Origin: Sphingomonas hengshuiensis
Lineage (GTDB): Bacteria; Pseudomonadota; Alphaproteobacteria; Sphingomonadales; Sphingomonadaceae
Assembly: GCF_000935025.1 (NCBI RefSeq)
Contig: NZ_CP010836.1
Location: 4,216,001-4,280,000 of the forward strand
Length of the DNA stretch: 64,000 bases
Direction of reading: 5' to 3'
Shown in pieces: positions 31,996 through 52,872 of the stretch. The stretch's first letter is position 1; every line of letters starts with the position of its first letter. The translations under genes and the position numbers were made by a program. The notes beneath the pieces were generated by a model. It made no database searches, had not been told where the DNA came from, and saw only the letters and a list, made by a program, of their open reading frames with translations.

Positions 31996-32193
31996 ATGCC
32001 GCGCAAGCCCATGACGTTTCAGTTCGATCTGTTTTCCAGCCCTCGCGATCCCGGGATCGCGCAGATGCCGCAGTGGCGGGCTCTGCCGATAGCGACGCGC
32101 CAGAAGTTGATGCCGCTGATCGTGCGCCTGCTCCTCGACCACGCCACCGCCGATCCCGCCCTGGCCAGGGAGGAGATGCGCGATGATATTTGA
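31996..32193 (+). CDS. Small protein preceding a serine recombinase
   Basis: A 65-residue protein (MPRKPMTFQFDLFSSPRDPG, then ATRQKLMPLIVRLLLDHATAD) with GGAGG six bases before the ATG. It overlaps the recombinase start by 11 bases. Short proteins of this kind usually sit directly upstream of this recombinase type, and I take it as part of the same mobile module. Its function is unknown; the C-terminal half looks helical. Confidence 0.65.
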   Translation: MPRKPMTFQFDLFSSPRDPGIAQMPQWRALPIATRQKLMPLIVRLLLDHATADPALAREEMRDDI

Positions 32194-34251
32194 GAAGATC
32201 GGCCCCCAGCATCTCGGGCGCAAGGCGATCCTTTATGTGCGGCAGTCGTCGGCGCATCAGGTCCTGCACAATCGGGAGAGCAGCGCCTTGCAATACGCCA
32301 TGCGCGATCGCCTCGTGGCGCTGGGCTGGTCGCGCATCGAGACCGTCGATGACGATCTCGGGCGATCCGCAGCAGGCGGGGTGACGCGTGCCGGTTTCGA
32401 CCGGATGGTGGCCGAGGTCTGCCTCGGCAAGGTCGGCGCCGCCGCGGCGCGGGAAGTCTCGCGTTTCGCCCGCAACAGTCGCGATTGGCAGCAACTCATC
32501 GAGATGTGCCGCGTCGTCGATACTGTACTGATCGACCAGGAGATCGTGCGCCGCGCCAGGGCAACGATCGGCTGCTGCTGGGCCTGAAGGGAAGCCTCAA
32601 TGAGTATGAGCTCGACCTTCTGCGGCAACGTTCTCTCTCGGCGCGCTATGAGAAGGCCCGCCGCGGCGAACTCATCGTCGCCGCTCCAGTCGGCTTTGTG
32701 AAAGCAGGGGGTCGGATCGAGAAGGATCCCGACCGCCGTGTCCAGGAAGCGATTGCCCTCGTCTTCGACAAGGTGTCCGAGCTCGGCAGCGCGCGGCGGG
32801 CGTTGCTCTGGTTCAGAGAGCATGGCCTGGATTTGCCCGCAAGACGCAACAACGGTGATGTCGTGTGGCGCAGGCCAAGTTATGCGACGATCCATCGGAT
32901 GATCGATAACCCGATCTACGGCGGCGCCTATGCCTATGGTAAAACAAGTGTCGTAGCCGGATATGATGGTACCACCATGCGGTCGAGGAGTCGTCGCAAA
33001 GGGCGGGATGAGTGGCTGGCGCTGATCCCCGGCTCACATGAAGGGTATGTCAGCTGGGAGCGATCGGAGGATATCCGTAAACAAGTGAGCGACAATGTCC
33101 CCATCAGCCGACATCACGGCGCCCCGAAGCACGGCGACGCCCTCCTCGCAGGGCTGGTTCGCTGTCGGCGCTGCGGACGCAAGCTGACCGTGCGCTACAC
33201 CGGCACCAAGCACGATATTCCCCGTTACTCCTGCTGGCGCGGCCTACTCGATAATGGCGAACCGCGCTGCATCGCCTTCGGCGGATTGCGCGTCGATGAC
33301 GCGATCGAGCAAGCGCTCATCCCGGTCATCGAGCCCGGCGCGATCACGGCCGCAGTCGAGGCCGAGACACAGGCTTCCGGTCACCGCGACCAGGTTCGGG
33401 ACGCGCTGACGCGCGATCTCGAGGCTGCCAGCTACGACGTGGATCGGGCCTTCCGGCAATATGACGCCACCGATCCGCAGAACCGACTGGTGGCGGCAGA
33501 GTTGGAGACGAGATGGAACCGGGCGCTTGCGCGGGTCGGCGAGATCGAGGCTCGGATCGCCGCGCACGATGGATCAACACCGGATCGAGCATCACTGTCT
33601 TGCGCCGATATCGCCGAGCTCGCGACCGATCTCAAAGCCGTCTGGACGGCTCAGCGGACCAACGCACGTCTCAAGAAGCGCATCGTGCGCACCCTCATTC
33701 ATGAGGTTGTCGCCGACATCGACGATGACGCCTCCGAGATCGTCCTGCTGGTCCATTGGGCCGGTGGCATTCATAGCGAGTTGCGGTTGCCGAAGCGACG
33801 CCGCGGGCAGCGCAACGCGACATCTGCCGATATCCTCGCTGCCGTCCGGCAACTCGTTCTCATCGCCAGTGACGATCTGATCGCTGGCATCCTCAACCGC
33901 AATGGTCTGATGACGGGCAACGGCAATCGCTGGACGCGCGAACGTGTCACTGCGCTCCGGTCGCATCACAGGATTCCAGTGTTTCGGGCCGCGCCGGATG
34001 GAGACGAGCCGTGGCTCAACCTGAGCGGCGCCGCGCGCCATGTCGGCGTTACCGCCAAGACGCTTCGGCTCGCTGCCGAAGCGGGTGATATCGAAGCGAT
34101 CCATCCCTTGCCCGATGGGCCTTGGATATTCAGCAGAGCCGAGCTTACCGGTCCAGGCGCTCGACAGATCGCCGACCGCGCGCGGCTGAACCCAAAATAC
34201 CCCACGGGATCGCACCCCGATCAGCAAAGCCTATTCACTTCAACAACATAG
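32183..34251 (+). pseudogene. Large serine recombinase, disrupted by a frameshift
   Basis: The N-terminal catalytic domain (AILYVRQSSAHQVLHNRESS with the nucleophilic serine in VRQSS, then [20 protein letters not shown]) is open from ATG 32183, which has GGAG seven bases upstream. The frame ends at 32587 without the expected continuation. About position 32550 the sequence resumes in another frame as [20 protein letters not shown] and continues to 34251. The second part holds the recombinase domain ([20 protein letters not shown]), the zinc ribbon ([13 protein letters not shown] ... YSCWRG), a coiled region and a C-terminal helix-turn-helix ([20 protein letters not shown]). A one- or two-base indel explains it. 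Either the gene is dead or the base call is wrong. Confidence 0.8.
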
Positions 34252-34875: not shown

Positions 34876-36468
34876 TTAGCGAGCCGAGCTTACGCTCCCT
34901 TTGGGGCATTGCATGGTGAGCGCCAGCACCTGATCGACTTGGCGGACCACTTCCAACTCCACGCCCCGCTTTGCCGCTGGCATGACGATGATCCGAGAGA
35001 TCATGCTGCGCGCTCGCGGAACAGCTTCGATGGCGGCATGCGGCTCAGCCAGTGCAGCCTCCAACGCCTCGACTTGCCGGCGATACTCCTCCTCCAGCCG
35101 AGGGTGGAAGCTCAGCACCGTCGGGATCGCGTCTATGCTGGAAAGCTCACGGGTCAGCCGCTCCGTGTCCGCCTTCGCCGCAGCCAGCATGACCCGTATC
35201 TCTGCAAACTCGCTGCCGCCATCCGCAAAGGCTTCGAGCATACGCTTCGCCTTGCGCTCCGCCTCGCAGAGCTGGCGCTCGATTCGCGCGCGATCACGGG
35301 TGAGGGCGGCTGACTGGCGCGCGAAGTCACGATGGTATTCGCGGACATAGGCGGCCACCACGTCGGGGGCGAGCATGTTGGCCTTCAGATCGGCGAGCAC
35401 GCGGCGCTCATATTGGCGCGTCGCGATGTTGCGGTTGTTGGCGCAGGCATTGCCCAGGCGGTGGCGGCTGCATCCCCAGTTGAGGCTGCTGATCTTGATC
35501 CACGGTCCGCCGCAGACGCCGCATTCCCCCAGGCCTGAAAGCAGATGCTTCGGCCGGCGCTGTCGATCGACGGGAACGCCTCTGTTCGCTTCGATGCGAT
35601 CATGGACCCGCTGCCAGAGCGCGTCGTCGACAATGCGCAGGTCGGGCACATCGTGCTCGACGATAGCCGTCCGGTCCGGGTTGGGCCGCATCAACTTGCG
35701 CCGCGTCACCGGGTTCATCGCCGACTTGGATCGGCCGTAGACCAGCTTGCCCAGGTAGACGCGATTACGAAGGATGCCGAAGCCGGTCTTGTTGTGGCCG
35801 AGGATCGTGCTCGTCTGCCAGATCGCGCCGCCGCGCGGCGGTCGCACACCCTCTGCATTAAGCGTCATGGCGATGGCGCGCGGGCTGATACCGGCGGCGT
35901 ACTCGCGGAAGATCCTGCGCACCACCTCTGCGCGCTCCGCATCGATTTCGCGTAGCCCGGCGACGAGCTGACCGCGCTCGTCCAGCCGATTGGCGATGCG
36001 GTAGCCATAAGCTACGCCGCTGGACGCCCGGCCCCGGTTGATGTTGGCGATATGGCCGCGCCTGCTGCGCGCTGCGAGATCGGTGCGGAACTGAGAGTCG
36101 GTAAAGCCCTTGATCAGGCCGATGATCGGCGTGACCGTACCGTCGAACAGGGTAAAAAGCCGTGCTCCGGCGAATTCCAGCCGTTCGCGGATCATGTGCG
36201 CGTCGGCAACGTGTCGGGAGACGCGATCCGTGGATTCGGCAAGCACCTGGTCGATGCCGCCGCCCTCCACCAAGCGGAGCATAGAACTTAGGCCGGGGCG
36301 CTGATCTTCGCCGATACCGGCGGCGCCGGAGGTCGCGACATCCTGAAACACGGCGATGACCGGCCAGCCTTCGCGATCGGCGCGCTCACGGCAGACGGCA
36401 ATCTGATCTTCGGCGGAGCGAGGATTCTGGTTATCGCTGCTGAAGCGGGCGTAGATCACGGTACGCAC
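34876..36468 (-). CDS. Large serine recombinase (site-specific integrase/resolvase family)
   Basis: A 530-residue recombinase. The catalytic domain starts MRTVIYARFSSDNQNPRSAE, with the nucleophilic Ser in ARFSS (Ser10 or Ser11), and includes ESTDRVSRHVADAHMIRERL. The recombinase domain follows (VAYGYRIANRL, YAAGISPRAIAMTLNAEGVR, then GILRNRVYLGKLVYGRS), with a zinc ribbon (LGECGVCGGPWIKI and the later C-N repeats) and a coiled C-terminal region. Unlike the upstream recombinase the frame is intact. It could be the integrase of the accessory block that contains the putative defence operon, although its attachment sites were not found. Confidence 0.88.
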   Translation of the reverse strand: MRTVIYARFSSDNQNPRSAEDQIAVCRERADREGWPVIAVFQDVATSGAAGIGEDQRPGLSSMLRLVEGGGIDQVLAESTDRVSRHVADAHMIRERLEFAGARLFTLFDGTVTPIIGLIKGFTDSQFRTDLAARSRRGHIANINRGRASSGVAYGYRIANRLDERGQLVAGLREIDAERAEVVRRIFREYAAGISPRAIAMTLNAEGVRPPRGGAIWQTSTILGHNKTGFGILRNRVYLGKLVYGRSKSAMNPVTRRKLMRPNPDRTAIVEHDVPDLRIVDDALWQRVHDRIEANRGVPVDRQRRPKHLLSGLGECGVCGGPWIKISSLNWGCSRHRLGNACANNRNIATRQYERRVLADLKANMLAPDVVAAYVREYHRDFARQSAALTRDRARIERQLCEAERKAKRMLEAFADGGSEFAEIRVMLAAAKADTERLTRELSSIDAIPTVLSFHPRLEEEYRRQVEALEAALAEPHAAIEAVPRARSMISRIIVMPAAKRGVELEVVRQVDQVLALTMQCPKGSVSSAR

Positions 36469-37399: not shown

Positions 37400-38285
37400 T
37401 GACAGTTTCCGCGCATGGAACGCCGGTTTTGCCCGGGCTTCACTCGGACGAGCTCGTTCTTGCCGTTGATGTAGCCGAGCGGAAGCGCGCCGTAGCGGAC
37501 CTCGTATTGGTCCTCCGCTATCTCGAAGATACCGATGCGTTCGCCTCTGAGCACCTCCGATACGAACAGCTCACGCCGATGCCACTTGATCGATCCGCTC
37601 AGATGAACCGGGCGGACGTGAGTGGCACCCCAATGTTCCGCGAGCGCAGCTTGCCATCCCAGAGGCGCGTGCTGGGATGATAGACCCTCGCCGGCGGGAT
37701 CTGACCGAGTGCCTCATTCGGTCATTCGTCGTTGAAGATGTGCCGGAACCGCTCAAGCCGCGCCAGTTGCGCCTTCGCCGTAAGCGAAGGCGGGGTTGCT
37801 GCCTTGCGCTTGAGCGTCTGATGCATTCGCTCGTGGCGGCCGTTCTCTTGTGGTTTGCCGGGTGTGATCCGTTCTGGCGTGATCCCCATTCGCACGAAGT
37901 TGACCGCCAGCCTCGATAGCTCACCCGCGGCGGTTGATCCGAACGGCGGCCCATTGTCGGATCGGATCGCGCGCGGCAGCCCATATTCCTTGAACGCCCT
38001 GACTAGGATCGGCCACACTGTCTCGAAGTCCGGATGCTCGACCGCCTGGCAGACCAGCAGATAGCGGCTGGCCGCGTCGGTGACGGTGAACGGCAGTACC
38101 CGCACGCCGTCGCCGGTCTTCCAGAAGCCCTTTAAGTCGATGCACCAGACGTCGTTCGGTGCATCAGCACCGCGAAATGGACGCTGCGCAGTCGGCGCGC
38201 GAGGACGCAGTTTGCGAGCCCGGACCAGGCCCTCGCGTTTGAGTATGTCGCAGATAGTCGACGCCGCCGGCCACTTCCTTGGTTA
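37400..38285 (-). pseudogene. IS481-family transposase remnant with several frameshifts
   Basis: Pieces of one IS481 transposase lie in order on the minus strand. The helix-turn-helix end (WPAASTICDILKREGLVRAR) is near 38280. The DDE core at 38105-37722 includes VLPFTVTDAASRYLLVCQAV, then PRAIRSDNGPPFGS and TPGKPQENGRHERMHQTLKR. The C-terminal part (GIFEIAEDQYEVRYGALPLG, then YINGKNELVRVKPG) is near 37540-37420. Stops and shifts separate these, and the N-terminus is missing. The remnant ends about 55 bases before the membrane operon starts. Confidence 0.8.
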
Positions 38286-38340: not shown

Positions 38341-39741
38341 ATGGGGGCATGGCCGAAGGTTAGGGGATTCTTCGATCGGAGCGAGCCGCTGCGCGCTCCG
38401 ATGGACGATCCTTTTATTCAGATAGACAGGGCGGAGGCGACTTCGGCACTCCGCTTGCGCGAACGTGGCGCCGAACAGGGAGCTTTGGAGCTTCCCGCGA
38501 CGTCCATGCAGACGCTGGACGTCGTAGAGGCCGATGTCGCCGCCTTCATTCAGGACCACTTCGAGCGTGCCCAGATTGATGCGGCAAACAGCATTCGGAC
38601 TTATGATTCTCGACTCAATGCACTGTCGTTGATCGCGAATCTTAGCTCTATCCGGACGCAGGCGATGATTGCCCTGAGCGATTTCAAGGCCGAGGTTGTC
38701 AATCGTCGTGGCCGACTTACAACCAGCCGCGACGCCATCGTCGACAGCTACGCCGAGCTTCGCGACTTCCGTAAGGACAATCGTCTCAGGCGGCCCGCGC
38801 ACGATGCTCCACCCAGCACTGCGACCATCGGGACCATCCTCGTTTGCTGGCTGCTCGAGACTATTGCGAACTCTATGTTCCTGCGGCTTGGTGACAGCAT
38901 GGGGTGGTTGGGCGGCGTCATCGCCGCCGCGGTCGTCGGCGCGATCAACGTCGGTGTGGCCGCTGTGGTCGGGCGTGTCCTCTGGCCCTTGGTGAACCGC
39001 CGTGAGACCGGCATGCGCGTCGTCGGGTGGCTGGCTATCGCCACATGGTTCGTCCTGACCGTGACCTGGAACCTCCTCGCGGGTCATTACCGGGATGCGA
39101 AGTCGCTGGCGCTGCCCAGCCCAGAGACGGCGGCGCTCGGGATGCTCGGGTCCGGTCTAGAAAGCATCTACTCCTACGGGCTTCTCATCGCCGGTCTGGT
39201 CTTCGCCTTCGGTGCCGCGATCTCAGGCTATAAGATGGACGATCCCTATCCCGGCTACGGACCGGTATCGCGCAGACATGCTAAGCGGTGCGATGACTAC
39301 GTCACCGATGTCGAGGATGCGACGGGTGAGCTGACGGCCATCCGGGACGACGCCGTCGGCGAGGCGACCGATGTGCGGTTGGAGCTCGGACGCCAACTGG
39401 CGCAGCGTCAGCAGATACTGACGCACCGGGACGCCTTCCGGCGTCGTTACGAGGAATACGCCGAGCATCTCGAAGCGACCGCGAACGCCCTCCTGCAGGA
39501 GTATCGTACCGCCAACCGATCGGCACGGTCCACCGACGCGCCCACGCGTTTCGACCAGACCTGGTCGCTGCCGCGATCTCCGTTGCCCCATGCCCCAGGT
39601 GAGGACGTGCCGCGATCGGCCATCGACGCGGCGGAAGCGGACCTTGAGCAGACGGTCACCAACATCTCGAAGGCGTTCGACGAGGCCATCGGTAGCTTCG
39701 AGCCCCTCGATGAACTGAAGAGGCGGATCGCCGATGGCTAG
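38341..39741 (+). CDS. Membrane protein with flanking coiled coils, first gene of the putative defence operon
   Basis: A 466-residue protein I cannot assign to a family. Residues 60-150 are helical and charged, probably coiled. Four membrane segments follow at about 160-182 (TIGTILVCWLLETIANSMFL), 188-218 (LGGVIAAAVVGAINVGVAAV), 228-248 (VVGWLAIATWFVLTVTWNLL) and 277-295 (YGLLIAGLVFAFGAAISGYK). The C-terminal 170 residues are another long charged helix region. The N- and C-terminal parts are probably cytoplasmic and could sense or transmit a signal to the motor-like proteins encoded downstream. The start is uncertain: no clear ribosome binding site precedes 38341 or the alternative ATG at 38401. 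Its end overlaps the next gene by eight bases. Confidence 0.7.
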   Translation: MGAWPKVRGFFDRSEPLRAPMDDPFIQIDRAEATSALRLRERGAEQGALELPATSMQTLDVVEADVAAFIQDHFERAQIDAANSIRTYDSRLNALSLIANLSSIRTQAMIALSDFKAEVVNRRGRLTTSRDAIVDSYAELRDFRKDNRLRRPAHDAPPSTATIGTILVCWLLETIANSMFLRLGDSMGWLGGVIAAAVVGAINVGVAAVVGRVLWPLVNRRETGMRVVGWLAIATWFVLTVTWNLLAGHYRDAKSLALPSPETAALGMLGSGLESIYSYGLLIAGLVFAFGAAISGYKMDDPYPGYGPVSRRHAKRCDDYVTDVEDATGELTAIRDDAVGEATDVRLELGRQLAQRQQILTHRDAFRRRYEEYAEHLEATANALLQEYRTANRSARSTDAPTRFDQTWSLPRSPLPHAPGEDVPRSAIDAAEADLEQTVTNISKAFDEAIGSFEPLDELKRRIADG

Positions 39742-40585
39742 GTCTCCCAGGGATCGTGCTAGGGGACGGGATCGGGGCCGATCCGCGGCCTCGAACCGAG
39801 CGGGTGCCGAGAGCCGCACCGCCATGTTCAAGATCGTTGCGGTCGTGGGCGTCGTCCTAATCGTGGGCGTGGTCTATTTCACGGTGGCGTCCGCTCGTCG
39901 CGATCTCGACCCTGTCACCCTCTGTCCGACGATGGCCGACAGCGTCACCGTCCTGCTTGTCGACGTGACGGATCCGATGAACACCGCTCAACGTCAGGAC
40001 TTCGCCAACCAGCTCGCGAAGCTGAAGAACTCGATCCCTCGTTACGGGAAGCTGATCGTCGCGAAGGTGGATGCGACGGGTGACCAGCTTCTCGCGCCTG
40101 TGATCACGAGGTGCAATCCTGGAACGGCGGAGGACGTCAGCTCGACGACTGGCGACCCGGCCGCCGTGCAGAGGCAGTGGGCGGACGGCTTCGACAAGCC
40201 GCTGACGCTGGCGTTCGAGCAGCTCGCCAAGGCCAGCGGTGCAGGACAATCCCCCATACTCGAAAGCATCCAGTCCACGGCGCTGACGGAATTCCAGAAG
40301 CCCGGACTAGAGAATACGCCTAAGCGGCTGATCGTCGCGTCCGACCTTCTCCAGAACACCGGAGACGTTAGCTTCTACCGTAGTCTCCCAGAACCGCGGA
40401 CGTTCACGGACAGTGGCCCGTTTCGCCGCGTGCGCACTGACCTGCGGGGTGTAGACGTGGAGTTGTGGATGCTCGAGCGATCCGACGCGGCGTCGACGCA
40501 GCCGCGTTCGCTGGCTGAGCTCTGGGAACGCATCATCGGCGCCGAAGGCGGCGAGGTGCGTCGAATCTACAACGTGAGTGGGTGA
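39734..40585 (+). CDS. Membrane-anchored VWA-like protein
   Basis: A 283-residue protein with a basic N-terminus, one membrane anchor (residues about 31-51, FKIVAVVGVVLIVGVVYFTV) and a soluble domain that would lie outside the cytoplasmic membrane. The domain begins SVTVLLVDVTDPMNTAQRQD, similar to the first strand and metal site of von Willebrand factor A domains, and later has PKRLIVASDLLQNTGDVSFY, resembling the fourth strand. The classical DxSxS is not exact (D-V-T-D-P), so metal binding is uncertain. It overlaps both neighbours, which places it firmly in the operon. It probably is an adaptor or sensor for the complex. Confidence 0.65.
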   Translation: MARSPRDRARGRDRGRSAASNRAGAESRTAMFKIVAVVGVVLIVGVVYFTVASARRDLDPVTLCPTMADSVTVLLVDVTDPMNTAQRQDFANQLAKLKNSIPRYGKLIVAKVDATGDQLLAPVITRCNPGTAEDVSSTTGDPAAVQRQWADGFDKPLTLAFEQLAKASGAGQSPILESIQSTALTEFQKPGLENTPKRLIVASDLLQNTGDVSFYRSLPEPRTFTDSGPFRRVRTDLRGVDVELWMLERSDAASTQPRSLAELWERIIGAEGGEVRRIYNVSG

Positions 40586-40587
40586 GG

Positions 40588-41904
40588 ATGAGCGATATGC
40601 AAGGCCACCAGCGGAACGTCCTCGAGGAACGAGGTTGGATCGACCGGTGGGGGTTCTTGCTGTTCGCCTTCGGCGGCGCAGGAAGCATCCTCATCGCCAA
40701 GGCGGTAGGCCTCACGGCGATCCCTGTCGCCGTCGGCGCCGCCATCGCGATGGTCGCGTACGCCTTCGTCGTCCAGACCTCAGGCACCGGACGGCTCCGC
40801 GCCGATCAGGCGGGTGACAACTGCTACTACCTAGGCCTGATCTACACGCTCATCAGCCTGGCCTATGCGATCTTCTTCTTTGATCCGGCGACGACCGCGA
40901 CCACGGTAGTACAGGGGTTCGGCGTTGCGCTCGCGACGACGATCATGGGGCTCATCCTGCGCGTTTTCTTCAGCCAGAGCCGCGTGGACCTCGTCGAAAC
41001 CGAGGACACCGCACGTATTGAGCTCGCGGATGCGGCAGGCAGGTTGAAGGCCGAGCTTCAGGCGATGACGGTCAGCATGAGCGACTATGGCCGCGAGACC
41101 CGTCAGACGCTTGAGGAGCTTCGCGCGCAGATCGTCGGGGACCTAATCGACGTACAGGGGCAGGCCACCAAGGCTATTGCCGAGACGGTGGCGGTAGCGA
41201 GCAAGGCAATCTCGACGGCGTCGATGTCGTCTCGCGATGGGGTCGCCGCGATGTCCGCGGAGGCCACGGCTGCGGTGAACCAGCAATCAGTCGAGGCGAT
41301 AGCCCGCGCGAAGCGGATGTCGACCGCGACCGACAAGATAGTCGCCGGAATCGAGAAGCATGCCGAGGCAATGGGGGGCATCGAACGATCCTCGACAGCC
41401 ATCGCAGCCAGCCTCGTCACGCTTGAGGGCGCAGCCGAGCGGACGCAGCAAAACCTTGGGGAGCTGTCTCGTCGATCCGAGGAACTGGCCGGGGCGCAGA
41501 CCACGCTGGCGAAGACCGGAGACGACCTGCGTGGTGCCGTGGCGGGAATGGTGGATCAGGTGAAGGGCTTCGACGCGACGACCATGAGGTTCGACACCGC
41601 GCTTAAGTCGAGACTGGAAGAGCTGAAAGACGTGCCCGGGGACATGGCAGCACGCACCGCTGAGGCATTCCAGCGCGCATCCACGGCGATGCAGGATCAG
41701 TTCACCGCAATCGCCGGGGGGCAGCGCGAATTCGCCAATCAGCTCTCCCTCCGGACGGAGGAGAGCGTCGCGATACTCGATCGTCACAACGCTGCGATGG
41801 AGGAGGAACTGGCGCGCTCGCGCGATAATGTCTCGAAGGTCCACGGCGCGCTGGTCGAGATGACCGGGACGCTCGTTTCGCGGGTTCGGACGGCAGACGC
41901 GTGA
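40588..41904 (+). CDS. MotA/TolQ/ExbB-like channel subunit with a long cytoplasmic coil (ZorA-like)
   Basis: A 438-residue membrane protein. Four membrane helices are visible in the first 130 residues (WGFLLFAFGGAGSILIAKAV, IPVAVGAAIAMVAYAFVVQT, YYLGLIYTLISLAYAIFFF, VVQGFGVALATTIMGLILRV). The fourth resembles the pore helix of MotA/ExbB proteins. The remaining 300 residues are a continuous alanine-rich coil, the kind of long tail described for ZorA of Zorya systems. The following gene encodes the MotB/OmpA-type partner, so the two should form an ion-driven stator-like motor. GTG 40582, overlapping the previous stop, is an alternative start. Assignment is by topology and neighbours, not close similarity. 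Confidence 0.7.
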   Translation: MSDMQGHQRNVLEERGWIDRWGFLLFAFGGAGSILIAKAVGLTAIPVAVGAAIAMVAYAFVVQTSGTGRLRADQAGDNCYYLGLIYTLISLAYAIFFFDPATTATTVVQGFGVALATTIMGLILRVFFSQSRVDLVETEDTARIELADAAGRLKAELQAMTVSMSDYGRETRQTLEELRAQIVGDLIDVQGQATKAIAETVAVASKAISTASMSSRDGVAAMSAEATAAVNQQSVEAIARAKRMSTATDKIVAGIEKHAEAMGGIERSSTAIAASLVTLEGAAERTQQNLGELSRRSEELAGAQTTLAKTGDDLRGAVAGMVDQVKGFDATTMRFDTALKSRLEELKDVPGDMAARTAEAFQRASTAMQDQFTAIAGGQREFANQLSLRTEESVAILDRHNAAMEEELARSRDNVSKVHGALVEMTGTLVSRVRTADA

Positions 41905-42821
41905 ACGATCCGCAGCTCGATTTACGTCAGGACAAGTCATACAGACGTGGTCTCGTCCTCGGATTGACGATGGCCGAAGTTATGATCCTGCTGCTGTTCG
42001 TCCTCCTAATGGCCTTGGCGGCCGCGTTGCAGAACCGCGATGATCGGATTCGCGTCCTGGACGGCGGTGGCGCTTCCCGAATGGTGGAGGAGTTGCAGCG
42101 TGCCTACCCGCAGGCGAAGAGCTCCGACGACTACTTCAAGGAGTTGACTCGCGCGATCGAGGCCAGGCGGCAGGTCGAAGAGGCTGGCGCGAAGGACGGG
42201 ACGAAGAACCTCCTCGCCGACGCCGAGGTTGGGCGTCAGGTCCGCGAGGCCGCCGCGTCGAGTGGCGTCAAGGACCCGGAGAAATTCGTTAAGGAGGTCG
42301 TGGCGGCATCGACCAAGGGACGGAAGGGCCAGTGGCCGCCGTTCTTCAGTCTGAGCGAGGCCGGTGGATACTTCTTTGATAGCGGCAAGGCGACGTTGCG
42401 GCCTGAATTCGAGCGTAGCCTGAGATCGGAAGTCATCCCGATGCTGGCGAAGAGCGTGGCCGACTACGACGTCGACGTCATTGAGGTTATTGGCCACACT
42501 GACGAGGTTCCGATGTCGGGCATTAGCAATCTGGACGCCGCTCTCATCCAGGCTTCGGTCGGTCGCGTGCCCATCGGCGCCTTGCGGTCAAATGATAATG
42601 CAGGGCTGGCGATGGCGCGCGCCGTTGCTGTTGTCCAGCAGCTTCGGGCGGATCCCCGACTTCGGGGGGCTGTCATCCTGCCATTGTCGGGCGCACAGAT
42701 GATCGTGCCTGTCGATGGGGTGGCGAACGGCTCCGCTCGGGGCAGCGACCAGCGCCGGCGCCGCATCGAAATCCGACTTAGGAAATCGACCCAGCAGGCG
42801 TCGCCGGTGGTGAGGAGGTAG
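41901..42821 (+). CDS. OmpA/MotB-like peptidoglycan-binding partner (ZorB-like)
   Basis: A 306-residue protein with one N-terminal membrane helix (residues 17-43, LVLGLTMAEVMILLLFVLLM) and a C-terminal OmpA-like domain. That domain has FFDSGKATLRPEFERSLRSE, then VDVIEVIGHTDEVPM, which are peptidoglycan-binding marks, and ends near DQRRRRIEIRL. An acidic residue, Glu26, lies in the membrane helix where MotB and ZorB have the ion-carrying Asp. The GTG start at 41901 overlaps the upstream stop (GTGA). With its partner it should sit as a wall-anchored ion channel. An insertion (residues about 60-140) separates helix and OmpA domain. Confidence 0.78.
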   Translation: MNDPQLDLRQDKSYRRGLVLGLTMAEVMILLLFVLLMALAAALQNRDDRIRVLDGGGASRMVEELQRAYPQAKSSDDYFKELTRAIEARRQVEEAGAKDGTKNLLADAEVGRQVREAAASSGVKDPEKFVKEVVAASTKGRKGQWPPFFSLSEAGGYFFDSGKATLRPEFERSLRSEVIPMLAKSVADYDVDVIEVIGHTDEVPMSGISNLDAALIQASVGRVPIGALRSNDNAGLAMARAVAVVQQLRADPRLRGAVILPLSGAQMIVPVDGVANGSARGSDQRRRRIEIRLRKSTQQASPVVRR

Positions 42822-42825
42822 TTCG

Positions 42826-43044
42826 ATGGACCAGCTCGACGTCAATCTATCGGAACTGCGGATTGCGCTGGTTGAGAAGCGGCGGGCCAGAGCTTCTCGC
42901 ATAACGCCCGTCGCGCGCATGGGCGACGATGGCGGCAATCACGATGCGTCGATGATTTCCGAGGTGTCGTGCGACCAGTCGCCCCCCCGTTCCATCGAGC
43001 CGGAACAGGCCCGCAGCTGGTTTCAGCGCTTGTTTGGCGCCTAA
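42826..43044 (+). CDS. Small hydrophilic protein of the putative defence operon
   Basis: A 72-residue protein (MDQLDVNLSELRIALVEKRR, ending EQARSWFQRLFGA) with no membrane segment. An AGGAGGT lies seven bases before the ATG, the strongest ribosome binding site in the operon. Its stop overlaps the next ATG (TAATG). I do not recognise a family. High expected expression and the C-terminal amphipathic helix suggest an accessory or regulatory subunit. Confidence 0.65.
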   Translation: MDQLDVNLSELRIALVEKRRARASRITPVARMGDDGGNHDASMISEVSCDQSPPRSIEPEQARSWFQRLFGA

Positions 43045-43706
43045 TGTCCGCGCGAGGCAGCCGTGGGGTTCGAGCTGGCCGCCGCGGCCGTCGCTCCGAA
43101 GTGCGAGGCGACCGACGTGGGCGGCTCGGAGTGTCCGAGCGCTTTCTCCTCGCGGCGGTGTCATTGATCTTCGTCGGTGTTTTCGCATTCACCTACCTTT
43201 ACGCCGATCGTAATCGTCGTTCGGCGCCCCTCGCAGCGTTTGGTGCGGATCGACCTTTACCGGTTGATATCGTGGATGCACCACGCGAGCCCCCCGGCAA
43301 TCGAGCGATTGCCGATATACGGACACCCACTCCGTCCGGGCGTCCAGTAGTCGCGGGTCCCGCACCGACCTTTTCCATCTGCCATACTGGGGGCGGCGCG
43401 AACTGCGTGGTGGACGGTGATACTGCTTGGATTCGTGGCGAGAAGATACGCATCGCTGACATCGACGCACCCGAGACGCATCCGCCACGGTGCCAGTCGG
43501 AGGCAAGTCTCGGCAACAGGGCGACGGAACGTTTGGCGGAGTTGATGAACTCCGGACCGTTCGAATTGCGGACGCTCGACCGGGACATCGATCGGTACGG
43601 GCGCAAGCTCCGGGTTCTGGTCCGAGATGGCCGGTCGCTGGGCGATCAGCTCGTTGCTGAAGGGCTTGCACGCTCTTGGGAAGGGCGACGCCGGCCGTGG
43701 TGCTGA
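43044..43706 (+). CDS. Membrane-anchored staphylococcal-nuclease-like (thermonuclease) protein
   Basis: A 220-residue protein. Residues 1-32 are very arginine-rich, residues 33-53 form a membrane helix (RFLLAAVSLIFVGVFAFTYL), and residues 108-220 are an SNase domain. Catalytic positions are in place: VVDGDT (Asp124, Asp126), KIRIADIDAPET (Arg137, Asp141, Glu144) and DRYGRKLR (Arg187). The C-terminus ARSWEGRRRPWC is usual for short bacterial members. These enzymes cut DNA and RNA with Ca2+. With a positive N-terminus the nuclease should face the periplasm, where it could meet incoming phage DNA. The ATG overlaps the previous stop, and the alternative longer frame from 42969 is less likely. Confidence 0.85.
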   Translation: MSARGSRGVRAGRRGRRSEVRGDRRGRLGVSERFLLAAVSLIFVGVFAFTYLYADRNRRSAPLAAFGADRPLPVDIVDAPREPPGNRAIADIRTPTPSGRPVVAGPAPTFSICHTGGGANCVVDGDTAWIRGEKIRIADIDAPETHPPRCQSEASLGNRATERLAELMNSGPFELRTLDRDIDRYGRKLRVLVRDGRSLGDQLVAEGLARSWEGRRRPWC

Positions 43707-43959: not shown

Positions 43960-44703
43960 TCAAGTAAACAGCGGCCCGCGAGTCCTTCCCAGCAATGAAG
44001 CAGCGCAAAGCTGATGACCGACATTCGGAAATTGTACTGTTAATGCGCAATTTGCTTCGGCGAACTCATCGCCATAATGGCCCGAGACGAAGCGCGAGCG
44101 CGGGTGCGGCAGGGGCAGCACCGGCAACTGGACGGCGTCGAACAACCGCATCCCGTGCGCATAGACTTCCAGTTCGCGCGGGTGGACGACGTCCTCGGCA
44201 TCGTGGAGCACGATCGCAAGCGCCGTGAACCCCTCCGCCGCCTCGTCGCGGAGCAGCGCGCGCCACAGCGCATTGAGGCAATCGGCCTTGGTCGTCGGCC
44301 CGGGCACCGCGCCGATCACCAGCCGCACGCGCGGATCGCCTGTTGCCACCTCGGCGACCGCGGCGATCGTCGCGGGATCGTTGGGATAGGTCCCGACATA
44401 GAGCGCGAAGTCGGTCGCGCCGAACCGTGCCAGCGCGCTGCGCAGCATCGCGCCGATCACTGCCGATTCGTCCCATGCCGGCACGAATATCGCGATGCGC
44501 CCGGCCGCCTGCACGATCTCTCCGGCCCCGGCGTCCGCAGCGCGCGCGCCAAGGCGGACGAGCCCCCGCAACCGGCGCATGGCGTAGAGGATGTCGACCA
44601 GCAGGTCGTCGAGACCGCCGACAAGGAAGCCCAGCGCCGCGAACAGCGTCGCCTCGCGTACGGCCGCATCGATTGCGGCGGTCAGCATCGCCCCCAGCTG
44701 CAC
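43960..44703 (-). pseudogene. Truncated NfrB-like glycosyltransferase (N-terminal part only)
   Basis: The first about 215 residues match family-2 membrane glycosyltransferases of the NfrB (phage N4 adsorption protein B homologue) type: an N-terminal membrane helix (LFAALGFLVGGLDDLLVDIL), IAIFVPAWDESAVIGAMLRS, YVGTYPNDPATIAAV, TTKADCLNALWRAL, LHDAEDVVHPRELEVY and RFVSGHYGDEFAEA. After that (about position 44057) the reading becomes unrelated and stops 32 codons later, whereas relatives run for 700 or more residues. GTG 44703 has GGAGG eight bases upstream. The missing part coincides with the border of the accessory block, so an insertion or deletion removed it. Confidence 0.8.
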
Positions 44704-47800: not shown

Positions 47801-50623
47801 GGCGTCTCGGGCGAAGTCTATGCCGTCGCGACGACGACCGACGCCAATGGCAATGTCGCGCGCTCGACGCGTTCGGTATGGCTGGTCGGCGACGAGGATT
47901 GGTGGTTCGGCGGCGACAATGGCGACCGGATGGACCTGATCCCCGAGCAGACCGAGTATAAGGCAGGCGAGACCGCCAAGTTCCAGGTGCGGATGCCCTT
48001 CCGCGAGGCGACCGCGCTGGTGACGGTCGAGCGCGAGGGCGTGCTGTCGAGCTTCGTCGTCGGGCTGTCGGGCAAGGACCCGGTGATCGAAGTGCCGATG
48101 CCCGGCGACTATGCCCCCGATGTCTATGTGTCGGTCATGGCGGTGCGCGGGCGCGTCGCGGGCTGGTCCAATTGGGGATCGAGCCTTGCGCGCGACTGGG
48201 GCCTGCCCTTCTTCTCGAAGGATGGCGGCGCGCCGACCGCGACGGTCGATCTCGCCAAGCCCGCCTATCGCCTGGGCATCGCCAAGGTTAAGGTCGGGTG
48301 GGAAGGCCATCGGCTGGGCGTGACGGTCAAGGCCGACAAGCCGAGCTATGCGACGCGCGACACCGCGAACATCGATCTCGAGGTCAAAAACCCCGACGGC
48401 AGCCCCGCCGCGCAGGCCGATGTCGCCTTCGCCGCGGTCGACGAGGCGTTGCTCCAGCTTGCCCCCAATGAAAGCTGGGACGTGCTTTCGGCGATGATGG
48501 GGGATCGCCCGCTCTCGGTGCTCACCTCCACTGCGCAAACGCAGGTCGTCGGCAAGCGCCATTACGGCAAGAAGGCGGTCGAGGCGGGCGGCGGCGGTGG
48601 CGGTGACCTGTCCGGGCTCAACCGTGAGAATTTCCAGCCGGTGCTGCTATGGAAGGGCAAGGTCGCGCTCGACGCCAAGGGCCATGCCCGCGTCCAGGTG
48701 CCGCTGTCCGACGCGCTGACCTCGTTCAAGCTGGTCGCCATCGCCACCAACGGCGCGCAATGGTTCGGCACCGGCGAGGCCAGCGTGCGCACCGCGCAGG
48801 ACCTGACCATCTATGCCGGGGTGCCGACTCTGGTCCGCACCGGCGACACCTATGGCGCGATGTTCACGCTGCGCAACGGATCGAGCAAGCCGATGCGCGT
48901 CACCGCCGAAGTCGCGCTGAGCCCGGCCATCGCCTCGGGCAAGCCGCTGACGGTGGACATTCCGGCGGGCGGCGCCGCGCCGGTTACGTGGAACCTGACC
49001 GCGCCTGCGCAAGCCGGCAAGCTCAGCTGGACGGTCACCGCCAAATCCGCCGACGGCAAGGCGGTGGACCGCGTGACGGTGGCGCAGGACGTGATCAACG
49101 CGGTGCCGGTCGAAACCTGGGCCGCCAGCCTGACGCGAGTCGGCACCACCCTGCCGATCGCAGCCCCGGCGGGGGCGCTGCCTGGGTTCGGCATGGTCGA
49201 AGTGACGCTGGCCGACACGCTGGCGCCTCCGCTCCAGGGGGTGCGCGACTATATGTCCGCCTATCCCTATGGCTGTCTCGAGCAGCGCACGTCGAAGGCG
49301 ATTGCGCTGGGCGACAGCGGCGCATGGACGCTGATCGCGGGCGAACTTCCCGCCTATCAGGATGGCGACGGGCTGCTCCGCTATTTCCCCGGCGAATGGC
49401 CGGGGTCGGAGGCGCTGACGGCGTACATGCTCTCGATCACCGCCGAGGCGGGGCTGCCACTGCCCGATGCGCCGCGCGCGAAGATGCTCGATGCGATGAA
49501 GGCAGTGCTCGACGGACGGCTGCGCCACGAGGATTATGGCGATGTCCGCTTCCAGAAGATCGCGGCGTTCGCGGCGCTGGCGCGGCAGGGCGCGGCGACT
49601 CCGGCGATGCTCGGCCAGCTCGGTATCGCCCCTGCCGAAATGCCCACGGCGCTGCTCGCAGACTATGCGATCGCGCTGGGCAAGGTGCCGGGGCTCGCCA
49701 ATGGCGCCGCGCTGCGCGCCGCCGCCGAACAGACGCTCAAGACCCGGCTGAACTATGAGGGCACCCGCATCGACCTGAGCGACAAGGGCGCGAGCCCCTG
49801 GTGGCTGATGTCGTCGGATAACGAAGCGGCGATCAAGGCCGTGCTTGCGACGCTCGGCCGCCCCGGCTGGCAGGACGAGTCGGGCAAGATGATGGTGGGC
49901 GTCGCGATGCGCCAGCAGCGCGGCCATTGGGGCACCACTACCGCCAATGCCTGGGGCGCGATCGCGGCGCGCAAGTTCAACGCGCTGTATCCGGCGGAGG
50001 CGATAGCCGGCGTGACCACGGCGTCGTTCGGCACCACCAGCGTCAGCCGAAGCTGGCCGCTCGCCTTGCCGCAGCGGATGTTCACGCTGCCGCTGCCGTT
50101 CCAGTCGACTCCGCTCGCGCTGACCCAGGCCGGCGGCGCCGCGCCCTGGGCGTTCGTCCGGGTCAAGGCGGCGGTGCCGCTCACCCAGCCGCTGATGGCG
50201 GGGTACAAGATGACCAAGCAGGTCAGTGTGGTGCAGGGCATGACCCCCGGGCGGACGACGCGCGGCGACGTGATCAAGGTCACGATCACCGTCGAGGCCT
50301 CCGCAGAACGCAACTGGGTAGTGGTCGAGGACCCCGTGCCCGCGGGCGCCACGGTGATCGGGTCGCTGGGCGGACAGTCCCAGATGCTGGCGGCACAGGC
50401 CGATAGCGGCGAGGGCGTCTCGCCCAACTGGACCGAGCGCGGGCGCGACTCCTGGCGCGCCTATTTCGGATGGGTGCCGCGCGGGACCTTCACCGTCTCC
50501 TATGTGATGCGGCTCAACAGCGCCGGGCGGTTCAGCCTGCCGTCGACGCGCGTCGAGGCGATGTATTCGCCCGAGATTCGCGCCGCGCTGCCGAACCAGC
50601 CGGTGGTCGTCGCCGAACGGTGA
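44867..50623 (+). CDS. Bacterial alpha-2-macroglobulin (YfhM type, thioester-containing)
   Basis: A 1918-residue periplasmic protease trap. The N-terminus is a signal peptide (GILALLLAPLGAIAA). MG-type domains follow (e.g. VSGFATSPAFSGTLRLSHRG, LRLRFVALDTAGKPLANQNI). The thioester motif GCLEQ is present (Cys1470, Gln1473), inside YPYGCLEQRTSKAI, and a TED-type helical domain surrounds it. Attack by a foreign protease should spring the thioester and trap the enzyme. GTG 44867 is chosen as start because GGGGAGA stands six bases upstream; ATG 44876 is alternative. The stop overlaps the penicillin-binding protein 1C gene by GTGA, the classic pairing in Gram-negatives. Confidence 0.93.
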   Translation: MKRMTKLGILALLLAPLGAIAAMGDNSPQVELATPGVGDGAIERFTVRFNQAMVPLGDPRAAGPFEVECPVAGEGRWVDQQTFVHDFATPLPGGVTCTFTIKPKLKSVSGYAIAGQTKFTVDSGGPIARAVLPSRYGREIEEDQTFLVAANLAPDPASVAAGAYCAVDGIGEKIPVDVLPAAVAGKLIADLGTDRWEMQSFLEEAGLPKALPAAEADRIKATASVVALKCRRPLPPGRDMALIWGKDIKSASGRAAGTDQRFDFTVRKPFTARLECSRVNPQAGCNPVQEAFVRFSAPIPRAQAEAIRIKLPDGKELSPALSDEDKRRATIGDVKFKAPLPAAVTAQLVLPADVADESGRKLSNAERFPLEVKFDEAPPLIKFAANFGILEAKEGGVLPVSVRNIEGALTAKQMSVEGQSLKVEGGDGEIAKWLRAIDDAASTKSDEVKRGTETVRINQTGAKPLLTPATGKPLQIGLPGAGKDFEVIGVPLTKPGFYIVEFASPKLGQALLGRAAPRYVAAGALVTNMSVHFKWGRASSLVWVTSLDTGQGVAAAEVRITDSCTGQVLAKGTTDSSGRLGVPAGLPEPETYANCENGNASPLMVSARKADDFSFTLTDWGQGIRPYDFDLPYGYSKPEQIFHTVFDRALVRQGETIHMKHIVRQPIVSGFATSPAFSGTLRLSHRGSDTKYELPLTIDTNGIGETEWTAPQGAKMGEYDIQVVYQQDGGEKTLYTSQSFKVDEYKLPTMKASVAGPKEAAVRPRTLPLDLFVGYLSGGGAANLPVELRVGYFEGFPTPSGYEAYSFGGRPLTEGVKPLNGSDETDEQSTPLPPTQTLPVTLGADGTARTTIDVPQSLDQSTNLQVEMDYQDANGEILTASHRVPIFTSGVQLGIKTDGWLMKQDDLRLRFVALDTAGKPLANQNISVELYSREILTARRRLIGGFYAYDNQMKTTKLGATCSATTDAQGLATCQMAPGVSGEVYAVATTTDANGNVARSTRSVWLVGDEDWWFGGDNGDRMDLIPEQTEYKAGETAKFQVRMPFREATALVTVEREGVLSSFVVGLSGKDPVIEVPMPGDYAPDVYVSVMAVRGRVAGWSNWGSSLARDWGLPFFSKDGGAPTATVDLAKPAYRLGIAKVKVGWEGHRLGVTVKADKPSYATRDTANIDLEVKNPDGSPAAQADVAFAAVDEALLQLAPNESWDVLSAMMGDRPLSVLTSTAQTQVVGKRHYGKKAVEAGGGGGGDLSGLNRENFQPVLLWKGKVALDAKGHARVQVPLSDALTSFKLVAIATNGAQWFGTGEASVRTAQDLTIYAGVPTLVRTGDTYGAMFTLRNGSSKPMRVTAEVALSPAIASGKPLTVDIPAGGAAPVTWNLTAPAQAGKLSWTVTAKSADGKAVDRVTVAQDVINAVPVETWAASLTRVGTTLPIAAPAGALPGFGMVEVTLADTLAPPLQGVRDYMSAYPYGCLEQRTSKAIALGDSGAWTLIAGELPAYQDGDGLLRYFPGEWPGSEALTAYMLSITAEAGLPLPDAPRAKMLDAMKAVLDGRLRHEDYGDVRFQKIAAFAALARQGAATPAMLGQLGIAPAEMPTALLADYAIALGKVPGLANGAALRAAAEQTLKTRLNYEGTRIDLSDKGASPWWLMSSDNEAAIKAVLATLGRPGWQDESGKMMVGVAMRQQRGHWGTTTANAWGAIAARKFNALYPAEAIAGVTTASFGTTSVSRSWPLALPQRMFTLPLPFQSTPLALTQAGGAAPWAFVRVKAAVPLTQPLMAGYKMTKQVSVVQGMTPGRTTRGDVIKVTITVEASAERNWVVVEDPVPAGATVIGSLGGQSQMLAAQADSGEGVSPNWTERGRDSWRAYFGWVPRGTFTVSYVMRLNSAGRFSLPSTRVEAMYSPEIRAALPNQPVVVAER

Positions 50624-52872
50624 AGCTGCCCCGCCTGCCGGAGTCGTTGCCTGCGCGCGTGCGCCGCTGGATCGTGCGCATCGACGGCTTTCCGCAGGCG
50701 CTTGCCGGCTGGGCCGGCGCCGAGCGGGCGGCGTGGCGCGCGCGCGGCTGGCGCGGGGTCTTTACCCCGCGCCGCCTGATCCTCGGCGCCACCGGCACCG
50801 TGCTGCTCGGATTCGGGACGCTCTACTGGACCACGCTGCCGCCGCCGCTCCCCGGCTATGCCGCGGTCCGCGCCAAATGGCAGCCGTCCGAGGCGTGGCT
50901 CTACGATCGCAACGGGCGGCTGATCGACAGCAGCCGGGTCGATTATCAAGCACGGCGGCTGGCCTGGACGCCGCTTGCCGATATCGCCCCGGCCGCGCGC
51001 GACGCGCTGGTCGGTGCCGAGGACCGCCGCTTTCGCAGCCATGGCGGGATCGACTGGATCGCGATTGGCGGCGCAATCCGCGACAAGCTGGCCGGGCGCC
51101 ACGCGCGCGGCGCCTCGACGCTCTCGATGCAGGTCGCGGCCTATCTGGCCCCCGGTCTCGCCACGCCGGGACGGCGCACCAACTGGGACAAGCTGCGCCA
51201 GATGCGCAGCGGCGCGGCGATCGAGGCGAGCTGGAGCAAGGACCAGATCCTGGAGGCCTATCTCAACCTCGCCGGGTTTCGCGGCGAGGCGCAGGGGATC
51301 GGCGCCGCCGCGCTGGGGCTGTTCGGCAAGACCCCCGCGGCACTGACGCGCGACGACGGCCTGCTGCTCGCCGCGCTGCTGCCCAATCCGCGTGCCGGCG
51401 CGAGCGAGATCGCCCGCCGCGCCTGTGCGCTCAGCCATGATGCCGATTGCAGCCGCTTTGCCGGCGCGGCGGCGTCGATGCTCGGCCCGGCGCGCACGCT
51501 CGCGCTCGATCCGGGGCTGGCGCCGCATCTCTCGGGGCGTCTCCTGACCACGCCGGGCGCGAAGGTCACGACCACGCTCGACGCGCGCATCCAGGCGTTC
51601 GCGATCGCCGCGCTGCGCCGCCAGTTGGTCGGGCTGGGCGGCAGCCGTGCGCGCGACGGCGCGGTGGTCGTGGTCGACAATGCCAGCGGCGACGTGCTCG
51701 CCTATGTCGGCGGGATTGGCGGCGAATCGACGGCGCCCGCAGTCGACGGTGCGGCGGCGTATCGCCAGGCGGGATCGACGCTCAAGCCGTTTCTCTACGC
51801 CCAGGCGATCGAGAAAGGGTATCTGACCGCCGCATCGATCCTCGACGATTCGCCGGTGCAGCTCGACACCGCATCGGGGCTGTACGTGCCCCAGAATTAC
51901 GACAAGGCATTCAAGGGGCCGGTATCGGCGCGCGTTGCGCTGGCGGGATCGCTCAACGTGCCCGCAGTGCGCACATTGCTGCTGACCGGAGTCGATGCGT
52001 TCCGCGATCGGCTATGGGATACCGGCTATCGCGGGCTGGTCGAGGACGGCCAATATTATGGCTATTCGCTCGCGCTGGGCTCCGCCGAAGTCACGCTGAC
52101 GGAGCAGGTCGCGGCATTTCGCAGCCTCGCGCTCGGCGGGCGCTGGGCGCCGCTGCGGCTTACGAAGGACGATCCGCACGTGGCCCCGCGGGCGATCACC
52201 AGTCCGCAGGCGGCGTGGATCGTCGCCGATATCCTCGCCGATCCCAATGCCCGCGCCGGCACCTTCGGCGTCGATTCGGCGCTGCGCCTCCCCTTCTGGG
52301 CAGCGGCGAAGACGGGCACGTCGAAGGCGATGCGCGACAATTGGTGCATCGGTTTTTCGGATCGGTTCACGGTCGGGGTATGGGTCGGCAACCTCGAAGG
52401 CGATCCCATGCGCGCGGTCTCGGGCACCAGCGGCGCCGCGCCGGTGTGGCGCGACATGATGATCGCGCTGCATCAGGGCCGCCCCAGCCATGCGTCCCCG
52501 CCACCGCCGGGAATCGAGACGCGCGCGATCCGCTTCGCCGCCGGCATCGAACAGCCCCGGCGGGAGTATTTCACGCGCGGCACGGCGCTGACCGACGTCG
52601 CATCGGCACCGGCGGCGGCGCGGCGCCCGCGTATCGTCAATCCGGTTGCGGGCAGCGTCTATGCGCTCGACCCCGATATTCCGCGCGACCGCCAGCGGCT
52701 GGCAATCGGGGTTTCGGGCGAAGTGATGGGGCACCGGCTAAGGCTCGATGCCCGGGATCTGGGGTCCGCCGATTCGCATCCGCTGGTGCTGGCGCCGCGC
52801 GGGCGCCACCGGTTGCAACTGGTCGATCTGGGCGGGCGGGTGGTCGACCAGGTGCTCTTCACCATCCGCTGA
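50620..52872 (+). CDS. pbpC: Penicillin-binding protein 1C
   Basis: A 750-residue bifunctional peptidoglycan synthase. A membrane anchor lies near residues 50-68 (LILGATGTVLLGFGTLYWTT). The glycosyltransferase domain has VGAEDRRFRSHGGIDWIAI, then GASTLSMQVAAYL. The transpeptidase domain has the serine nucleophile in GSTLKPFLYAQAIE, the SLN motif in AGSLNVPAV and KTGTSKAM. The C-terminal PBP1C domain covers the last 100 residues. It repairs or remodels the wall and is thought to cooperate with the alpha-2-macroglobulin encoded just upstream, by GTGA overlap. The start is GTG 50620. Confidence 0.93.
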   Translation: MKLPRLPESLPARVRRWIVRIDGFPQALAGWAGAERAAWRARGWRGVFTPRRLILGATGTVLLGFGTLYWTTLPPPLPGYAAVRAKWQPSEAWLYDRNGRLIDSSRVDYQARRLAWTPLADIAPAARDALVGAEDRRFRSHGGIDWIAIGGAIRDKLAGRHARGASTLSMQVAAYLAPGLATPGRRTNWDKLRQMRSGAAIEASWSKDQILEAYLNLAGFRGEAQGIGAAALGLFGKTPAALTRDDGLLLAALLPNPRAGASEIARRACALSHDADCSRFAGAAASMLGPARTLALDPGLAPHLSGRLLTTPGAKVTTTLDARIQAFAIAALRRQLVGLGGSRARDGAVVVVDNASGDVLAYVGGIGGESTAPAVDGAAAYRQAGSTLKPFLYAQAIEKGYLTAASILDDSPVQLDTASGLYVPQNYDKAFKGPVSARVALAGSLNVPAVRTLLLTGVDAFRDRLWDTGYRGLVEDGQYYGYSLALGSAEVTLTEQVAAFRSLALGGRWAPLRLTKDDPHVAPRAITSPQAAWIVADILADPNARAGTFGVDSALRLPFWAAAKTGTSKAMRDNWCIGFSDRFTVGVWVGNLEGDPMRAVSGTSGAAPVWRDMMIALHQGRPSHASPPPPGIETRAIRFAAGIEQPRREYFTRGTALTDVASAPAAARRPRIVNPVAGSVYALDPDIPRDRQRLAIGVSGEVMGHRLRLDARDLGSADSHPLVLAPRGRHRLQLVDLGGRVVDQVLFTIR

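Follow-up and report, generated by a model that had tools for sequence, protein, structure and literature searches.

Does the block of six genes at positions 38341 to 43706 of a 64,000-nucleotide stretch of Sphingomonas hengshuiensis DNA (contig NZ_CP010836.1; this whole stretch, C1:4216001-4280000, is referred to as the window) encode an undescribed Zorya-like defence system, as a preliminary description had proposed? The sequences support a somewhat different answer, namely a distinct, mobile, envelope-based nuclease machine that appears to use a Zorya-like motor pair. From the original proposal, the ZorAB-type channel pair, the protein with a VWA domain, the associated staphylococcal-type nuclease (SNase) and the mobile DNA were supported, whereas membership in Zorya was not. 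Among open-licence papers, none was found that describes this gene set.

The coordinates of the open reading frames (ORFs) bear out that all six genes lie on the plus strand, at the positions first noted, and overlap or abut. Gene A (38341 to 39741) encodes a membrane protein of 466 residues that has about four hydrophobic helices and long regions at both termini, and gene B (39734 to 40585) a 283-residue protein with an N-terminal anchor and a VWA domain predicted to be extracytoplasmic. The product of gene C (40582 to 41904; 440 residues) appears to combine a four-helix membrane core like that of MotA, TolQ, ExbB and ZorA with a coil of some 300 residues, and that of gene D (41901 to 42821; 306 residues) is MotB/ZorB-like, with one transmembrane helix followed by an OmpA-like domain. 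They are followed by a small protein of 72 residues (E, 42826 to 43044) and a 220-residue, transmembrane-anchored SNase (F, ending at 43706) whose nuclease domain is predicted to be periplasmic. A and B overlap by 8 nt, B and C as well as C and D by 4 nt, and 4 nt separate D from E. The listed start of F is a GTG at 42969, giving a 76-nt overlap with E; an in-frame ATG at 43044 shares one base with the stop codon of E (TAATG). Since this ATG overlaps the E stop and is nearer to the start site of several SNase homologues, it is probably the true start, so that the end and frame first given for F hold and its start moves. The genome (5.2 Mb) carries a single copy of C.

The A-B-C-D order is kept in 34 distinct loci, counted with the window after removal of two repeats (L066 repeats L019, and L081 repeats L080). 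Eighteen of the 20 loci from named genomes, metagenome-assembled genomes and plasmids (L002-L021) have the four genes in order on one strand, with A of L009 cut by the contig start; L004 begins inside the operon, and in the L010 copy A, B and the beginning of C are missing. Another 35 fetched regions yielded 15 full cores (A of L073 being partial at a contig start), ten A-B pairs without detected C or D, which were kept apart, nine regions with a weak B-like match only, and one A-B-C run (L072) that was not counted, its contig ending after C. Left out of all counts were L064, L065, L079 and L087-L092, likely other VWA proteins, although L079 also has a weak D-like match. The core and SNases are present on the viral-collection contigs L139 and L140 too, and a resolvase-like ORF was seen by eye upstream in L139. 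Thus, the co-occurrence that the preliminary description had asked about is widespread for the four core genes and, at most loci, the SNase, but its unit of six genes has to be narrowed, as E was seen in the near relatives L003 and L005 only.

The spread of the operon is patchy. Database searches at E up to 1e-3 gave at least 311 relatives of C and at least 355 of B, with only about 8,000 candidates sharing most words scored in each search, and the named full-core loci are all alphaproteobacterial. The full core was found in 2/396 genomes of the order, 9/385 of the class and 8/398 of the phylum, and B-family matches in 9, 15 and 17 genomes of the same samples, which overlap in some genomes including that of the window. 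The contig of L004 is labelled Phycisphaerales and clusters with sphingomonad copies on the C tree, which is probably a binning error. Phage records, searched with D only, gave no match.

As first noted, F is an SNase with its catalytic residues: it scores 36.4 bits against the Pfam SNase model (cut-off 21) and contains the motif DGDT..R..IDAPE..DRYGR. The pattern D[GA]DT..R..D[AT]PE is present in 24 of 25 SNase copies, fused copies included. Adding L004 and L010 to the 34 gives 36 loci with both C and D, and in 26 of these a nuclease lies beside the core or is fused to it. A separate SNase occurs within 1.3 kb in 21 loci (13 downstream on the same strand, six upstream and two downstream on the opposite strand), whereas in four others (L068, L073, L074 and L084) an SNase domain is fused to the C-terminus of D (24.7 to 51.0 bits, over the Pfam cut-off) and in L085 this place is taken by the HNH domain GmrSD_C (44.2 bits, over the cut-off). 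The contig of L011 ends just past D, so its nuclease could not be judged. Because the 240-kb control sample is small for SNase, matches were counted in whole genomes: 22 of these genomes, together about 104 Mb, hold 55 SNase matches, and 16 of the 22 have one adjacent or fused to the core against about 0.12 expected (10-kb windows). The six genomes without an SNase at the core are those of L007, L012, L067, L070, L071 and L085, the last with HNH.

The fused D proteins have 98 close relatives in a database search, of which 24 are labelled SNase and 27 GmrSD_C (23 of these 27 with a DxDHxVP-type motif), shares that are not population frequencies since only fusions had been used as the query. Four D relatives (P0310, P0322, P0329 and P0330) have degenerate-looking, SNase-like C-termini that the Pfam labels missed. 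When the arrangement labels are placed on a tree built from the C membrane part, 12 changes are needed, and the SNase-fusion label requires a minimum of two, be they gains or losses; long branches meet in this tree, which leaves the number of origins unsettled. Judged from adjacency, fusions, whole-genome counts and label changes, the nuclease belongs with the complex, as first supposed for the channel pair and VWA protein, and is exchangeable.

On which side of the membrane would it act? The fused D proteins run from a transmembrane helix near the start through the OmpA domain to the nuclease, and each of the 18 separate SNases examined, of 21, opens with a hydrophobic anchor or a signal-like segment (14 by a simple hydropathy rule and four by eye, L139 and L140 standing outside this set). 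The same hydropathy scoring gives F of the window an N-terminal anchor with the more positive side N-terminal, and the SNase of L080 carries an Excalibur calcium-binding domain, in keeping with extracytoplasmic work. As the fused domain lies beyond both the helix and the OmpA domain of D, and the separate SNases have an anchor or signal-like start, these sequences strongly suggest that the nuclease acts in the periplasm. The preliminary description had recognized the membrane anchor of F but not this extracytoplasmic side, which is opposite to that of the Zorya effectors.

The structure search that had been proposed for the channel pair gave a divided result, as the helical membrane part of C resembles TolQ and ZorA (Foldseek on the predicted model) but with a best E-value of 0.05, which is not significant. 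A profile of full-length C had coiled coils as its best matches among solved structures, with ZorA at 17.4 bits via the tail. T89, S92 and T120 are invariant in 20 C sequences. C scores 11.9 bits against NCBIfam ZorA_1, whose cut-off is 190, and at most 17.3 bits against PADLOC ZorA, over stretches extending into the coil. Control DNA totalling 240 kb contained no match to the A, B, D or SNase profiles and one to the C profile (a 1924-residue ORF, 1.5e-06), which indicates that the coil can match unrelated proteins.

For D, the proposed OmpA/MotB-like partner was confirmed by a match to PADLOC ZorB1 over residues 157-296 (27.9 bits, E 4e-07). Pfam OmpA is above its cut-off in the fused D proteins of L084, L073 and L085 and below it in those of L068 and L074; by these matches, D is assigned an OmpA-type domain of the peptidoglycan-binding type. 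Its transmembrane helix has an invariant Glu26 (TxAE), with Glu in 38/38 D proteins (36 distinct). In ZorB, this critical transmembrane position is described as aspartate (D24/D21; PMC11890865). The absence of the known Zorya effectors was borne out, since ZorC, ZorD, ZorE, ZorF and ZorG have no match in the six proteins (PADLOC, E up to 1). Zorya membership was rejected on the missing ZorC-G, the Glu for Asp in D and the ZorA model score.

The other two core proteins set the system apart further. A had no match in Pfam, NCBIfam or PADLOC; it has three or four helices depending on the hydropathy threshold, and E173 and N177 in the first are invariant in an alignment of 18 A sequences. The predicted model of B has a VWA fold, in agreement with the membrane-anchored VWA-like protein first described, and C64, C127, D77, D80, S173, S203 and D204 are invariant across 19 sequences. 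A full metal ion-dependent adhesion site (MIDAS) has the motif DxSxS...T...D; B has a partial version, DVTDP with invariant D77, D80, S173 and D204. Profiles of A and B gave nothing useful among solved structures. The loci where A and B are paired but neither C nor D was detected are L059, L060, L061, L062, L063, L075, L076, L077, L078 and L086, and the pair of L061 adjoins a VirD4-type coupling protein while that of L059 is near a relaxase. Given these two neighbours, A and B may additionally work as a module in elements linked to conjugation.

The window copy of the operon sits at one end of a conjugative-type island of about 114 kb, whose integration split a glycosyltransferase gene. The N-terminal half of this gene is at 43963..44703 on the minus strand (Pfam 72.3 bits), the right-hand boundary of the island being near 44030, and the C-terminal half is about 114 kb away on the same strand (G000:C1:4144781-4145533); in 21 genomes of the genus, the best glycosyltransferase match has an open frame of 463 to 556 residues. 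The island encodes TrbI, a type IV secretion system coupling protein and a DUF3363 protein (its relaxase match being below the cut-off), and its G+C content is mostly lower than that of the outer flanks. The two junctions showed no clear direct repeat. The insertion sequence (IS) pieces and recombinases among which the block had been placed were confirmed upstream of A by Pfam. They comprise an IS-type transposase remnant with an integrase core (37725..38105, minus strand; rve 37.3 bits), a large serine recombinase (34879..36468, minus strand; Resolvase 70.2 and Recombinase 69.6 bits) and a second serine recombinase on the plus strand (32183..34251) in two overlapping frames (32183-32587 and 32485-34251). 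Lower G+C, serine recombinases, conjugation genes and the split gene together place the operon at the island end.

Defence genes near some relatives were found in the neighbourhood survey that had been suggested. The 148 neighbour proteins of 28 loci, chosen by a simple G+C rule rather than a gene finder, matched 72 PADLOC families against eight in 148 control proteins (E up to 1e-10) from arbitrary places in 12 genomes, none of them those of L002-L021; 25 of the 72 are named among the matches listed, with mad3, mad8 and AriA being loose. A short prokaryotic Argonaute (pAgo) and its partner lie directly upstream of A in L007, Cas10 and Csm3 (type III CRISPR) beside the operon in L070, STK_OB in L069, PDC-S02 in L002, and AbiEii about 40 bp past D in both L019, a Tistrella plasmid, and L067, a close relative of it. 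Elsewhere in the 28 genomes or records, there is one more pAgo and no more AbiEii, PDC-S02 or STK_OB, which speaks for a low background and not for independent enrichment, as these families were picked after being seen beside the operon.

How could such a complex work? C subunits would surround D helices as a stator-type ion channel in which Glu replaces Asp as the ion carrier, the OmpA domain of D would grip peptidoglycan, and the long coil of C would extend into the cytoplasm. Periplasmic B and inner-membrane A would be extra subunits, perhaps holding or releasing the nuclease. A phage tail that disturbs the wall would lead D to bind peptidoglycan, ions to flow and the complex to move, and the nuclease tethered there (an SNase beside or fused to D, or a fused HNH domain) would cut DNA crossing the periplasm. 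Because host DNA is absent from that compartment, location alone would separate self from non-self. Gene company and mobility point to the defence role, the anatomy of the proteins suggests the periplasmic cutting step, the target would be phage, and trigger and motor action are modelled on Zorya (PMC11890865). We consider it fairly probable that the operon encodes a Zorya-like but distinct envelope defence, with a motor-mounted nuclease cutting DNA in transit through the periplasm. The evidence seems evenly balanced on a broader proposal, a distinct class of periplasmic immunity in which the MotB-like arm of a peptidoglycan-anchored ion motor bears an interchangeable nuclease, SNase or HNH, that breaks up incoming DNA there, and the compartment alone decides between self and non-self, with no need for a sequence or modification signal.

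Several observations weigh against an envelope defence of this kind. The model of C is weak (predicted local distance difference test, pLDDT, 61), designed helical proteins match it with a similar Z, and profiles of the C membrane part (A11) and the D helix (A12) found no motor protein among solved structures. D of the window scores 20.2 bits against Pfam OmpA, below the cut-off of 27.2. By eye, the D proteins of L012, L013, L069, L070 and L071 seem to have no OmpA domain and share a different domain at their end, which contains a CW motif; that of L070, the one tested of these five, gave no OmpA or other significant Pfam match. The SNase of L140 is the copy without the catalytic pattern, and nine of the 36 loci have no nearby SNase by the SNase profile, that of L007 lying 5 kb off. 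Named defence neighbours were mapped in six of the 28 loci only, two of them near-identical relatives, and no known defence gene adjoins the window copy in a Pfam search of 20 neighbours.

The mobile setting could also suit a nuclease that guards its element by destroying competing conjugative or taken-up environmental DNA instead of phage DNA. This would fit the conjugation genes of the island in the window, the relatives of C in 24 plasmid records and the A-B pairs of L061 and L059 beside conjugation genes. However, some copies adjoin anti-phage genes, and conjugating DNA is thought to cross the envelope within the secretion channel, which makes this reading unlikely. SNases are often secreted degradative enzymes, and together with a penicillin-binding protein upstream in L020 and a transglycosylase/transpeptidase gene in the window (50470-52872, beyond the island edge) this might suggest a housekeeping machine, in which a Tol/Ton-like motor and a scavenging nuclease feed on extracellular DNA or serve the wall. 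A consistent link to motility, secretion or wall synthesis had been named as evidence against defence; six records with annotated neighbours hold no repeated link of this kind, the single cases being the protein of L020, a type VI secretion system VgrG (L021) and an SH3-domain protein (L014), so that defence is not refuted on this point. A patchy spread (full core in 2/396 genomes of the order and 9/385 of the class), varied neighbours, the swap of SNase for HNH, and plasmid and island locations render a housekeeping role rather improbable.

A strict new Zorya subtype, in which the nuclease stands in for ZorE and attacks intracellular DNA, would draw on the ZorA-like core and coil and the ZorB-like partner. 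In the fusions, however, the nuclease domain follows the OmpA domain, and the separate nucleases have an anchor or signal-like segment ahead of it; Glu takes the place of Asp, and there are two additional conserved subunits, so we regard such a subtype as very improbable.

A distinct envelope defence with a motor-mounted nuclease would have partial counterparts among known systems. Secreted thermonucleases of the SNase family share its catalytic motif and its predicted extracytoplasmic location, but here the nuclease is tied genetically, and in fusions physically, to a channel complex. TolQR, ExbBD and MotAB stator units share the layout of D and may, judging by the predicted model, share the membrane fold of C; they have no nuclease or VWA subunit, and Asp is the ion carrier of Tol and Exb units. 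The same residue serves MotAB and ZorAB (PMC11890865). If the proposal is true, a stator-type motor serves defence at the outer face of the inner membrane, in some lineages with the nuclease built onto the motor's own wall-binding arm, which would explain how the nuclease spares the host. SNIPE is likewise described as a membrane-tethered nuclease that cuts phage DNA at entry, with specificity from its location (PMC13190303), phage being the presumed target here. It differs in being described as a single, cytoplasm-facing GIY-YIG/DUF4041 protein with no motor (PMC13190303), and the six proteins have no Pfam match to GIY-YIG or DUF4041 at E up to 1. Compared with SNIPE, which cuts from the cytoplasmic face (PMC13190303), this machine would do so one compartment earlier. 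Thanks to the gene fusions, the location of the effector can be tested with simple topology reporters, in a family whose effector and motor could be swapped and assayed. Zorya types I-III (ZorAB with ZorCD, ZorE or ZorFG) are also close, being described as having an inner-membrane channel of the MotA/ExbB kind with a long cytoplasmic coil, a MotB-like partner with an OmpA domain, a nuclease and a patchy spread (PMC11890865). In contrast to these, the six proteins include no ZorC-G, an invariant Glu replaces the Asp of ZorB (PMC11890865), VWA and multi-helix membrane subunits are added, and the nuclease, predicted to be periplasmic, is at some loci joined to the MotB-like partner in a single protein. 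The operon would then represent a second case of motor-based immunity, against which the role of the Zorya motor could be tested.

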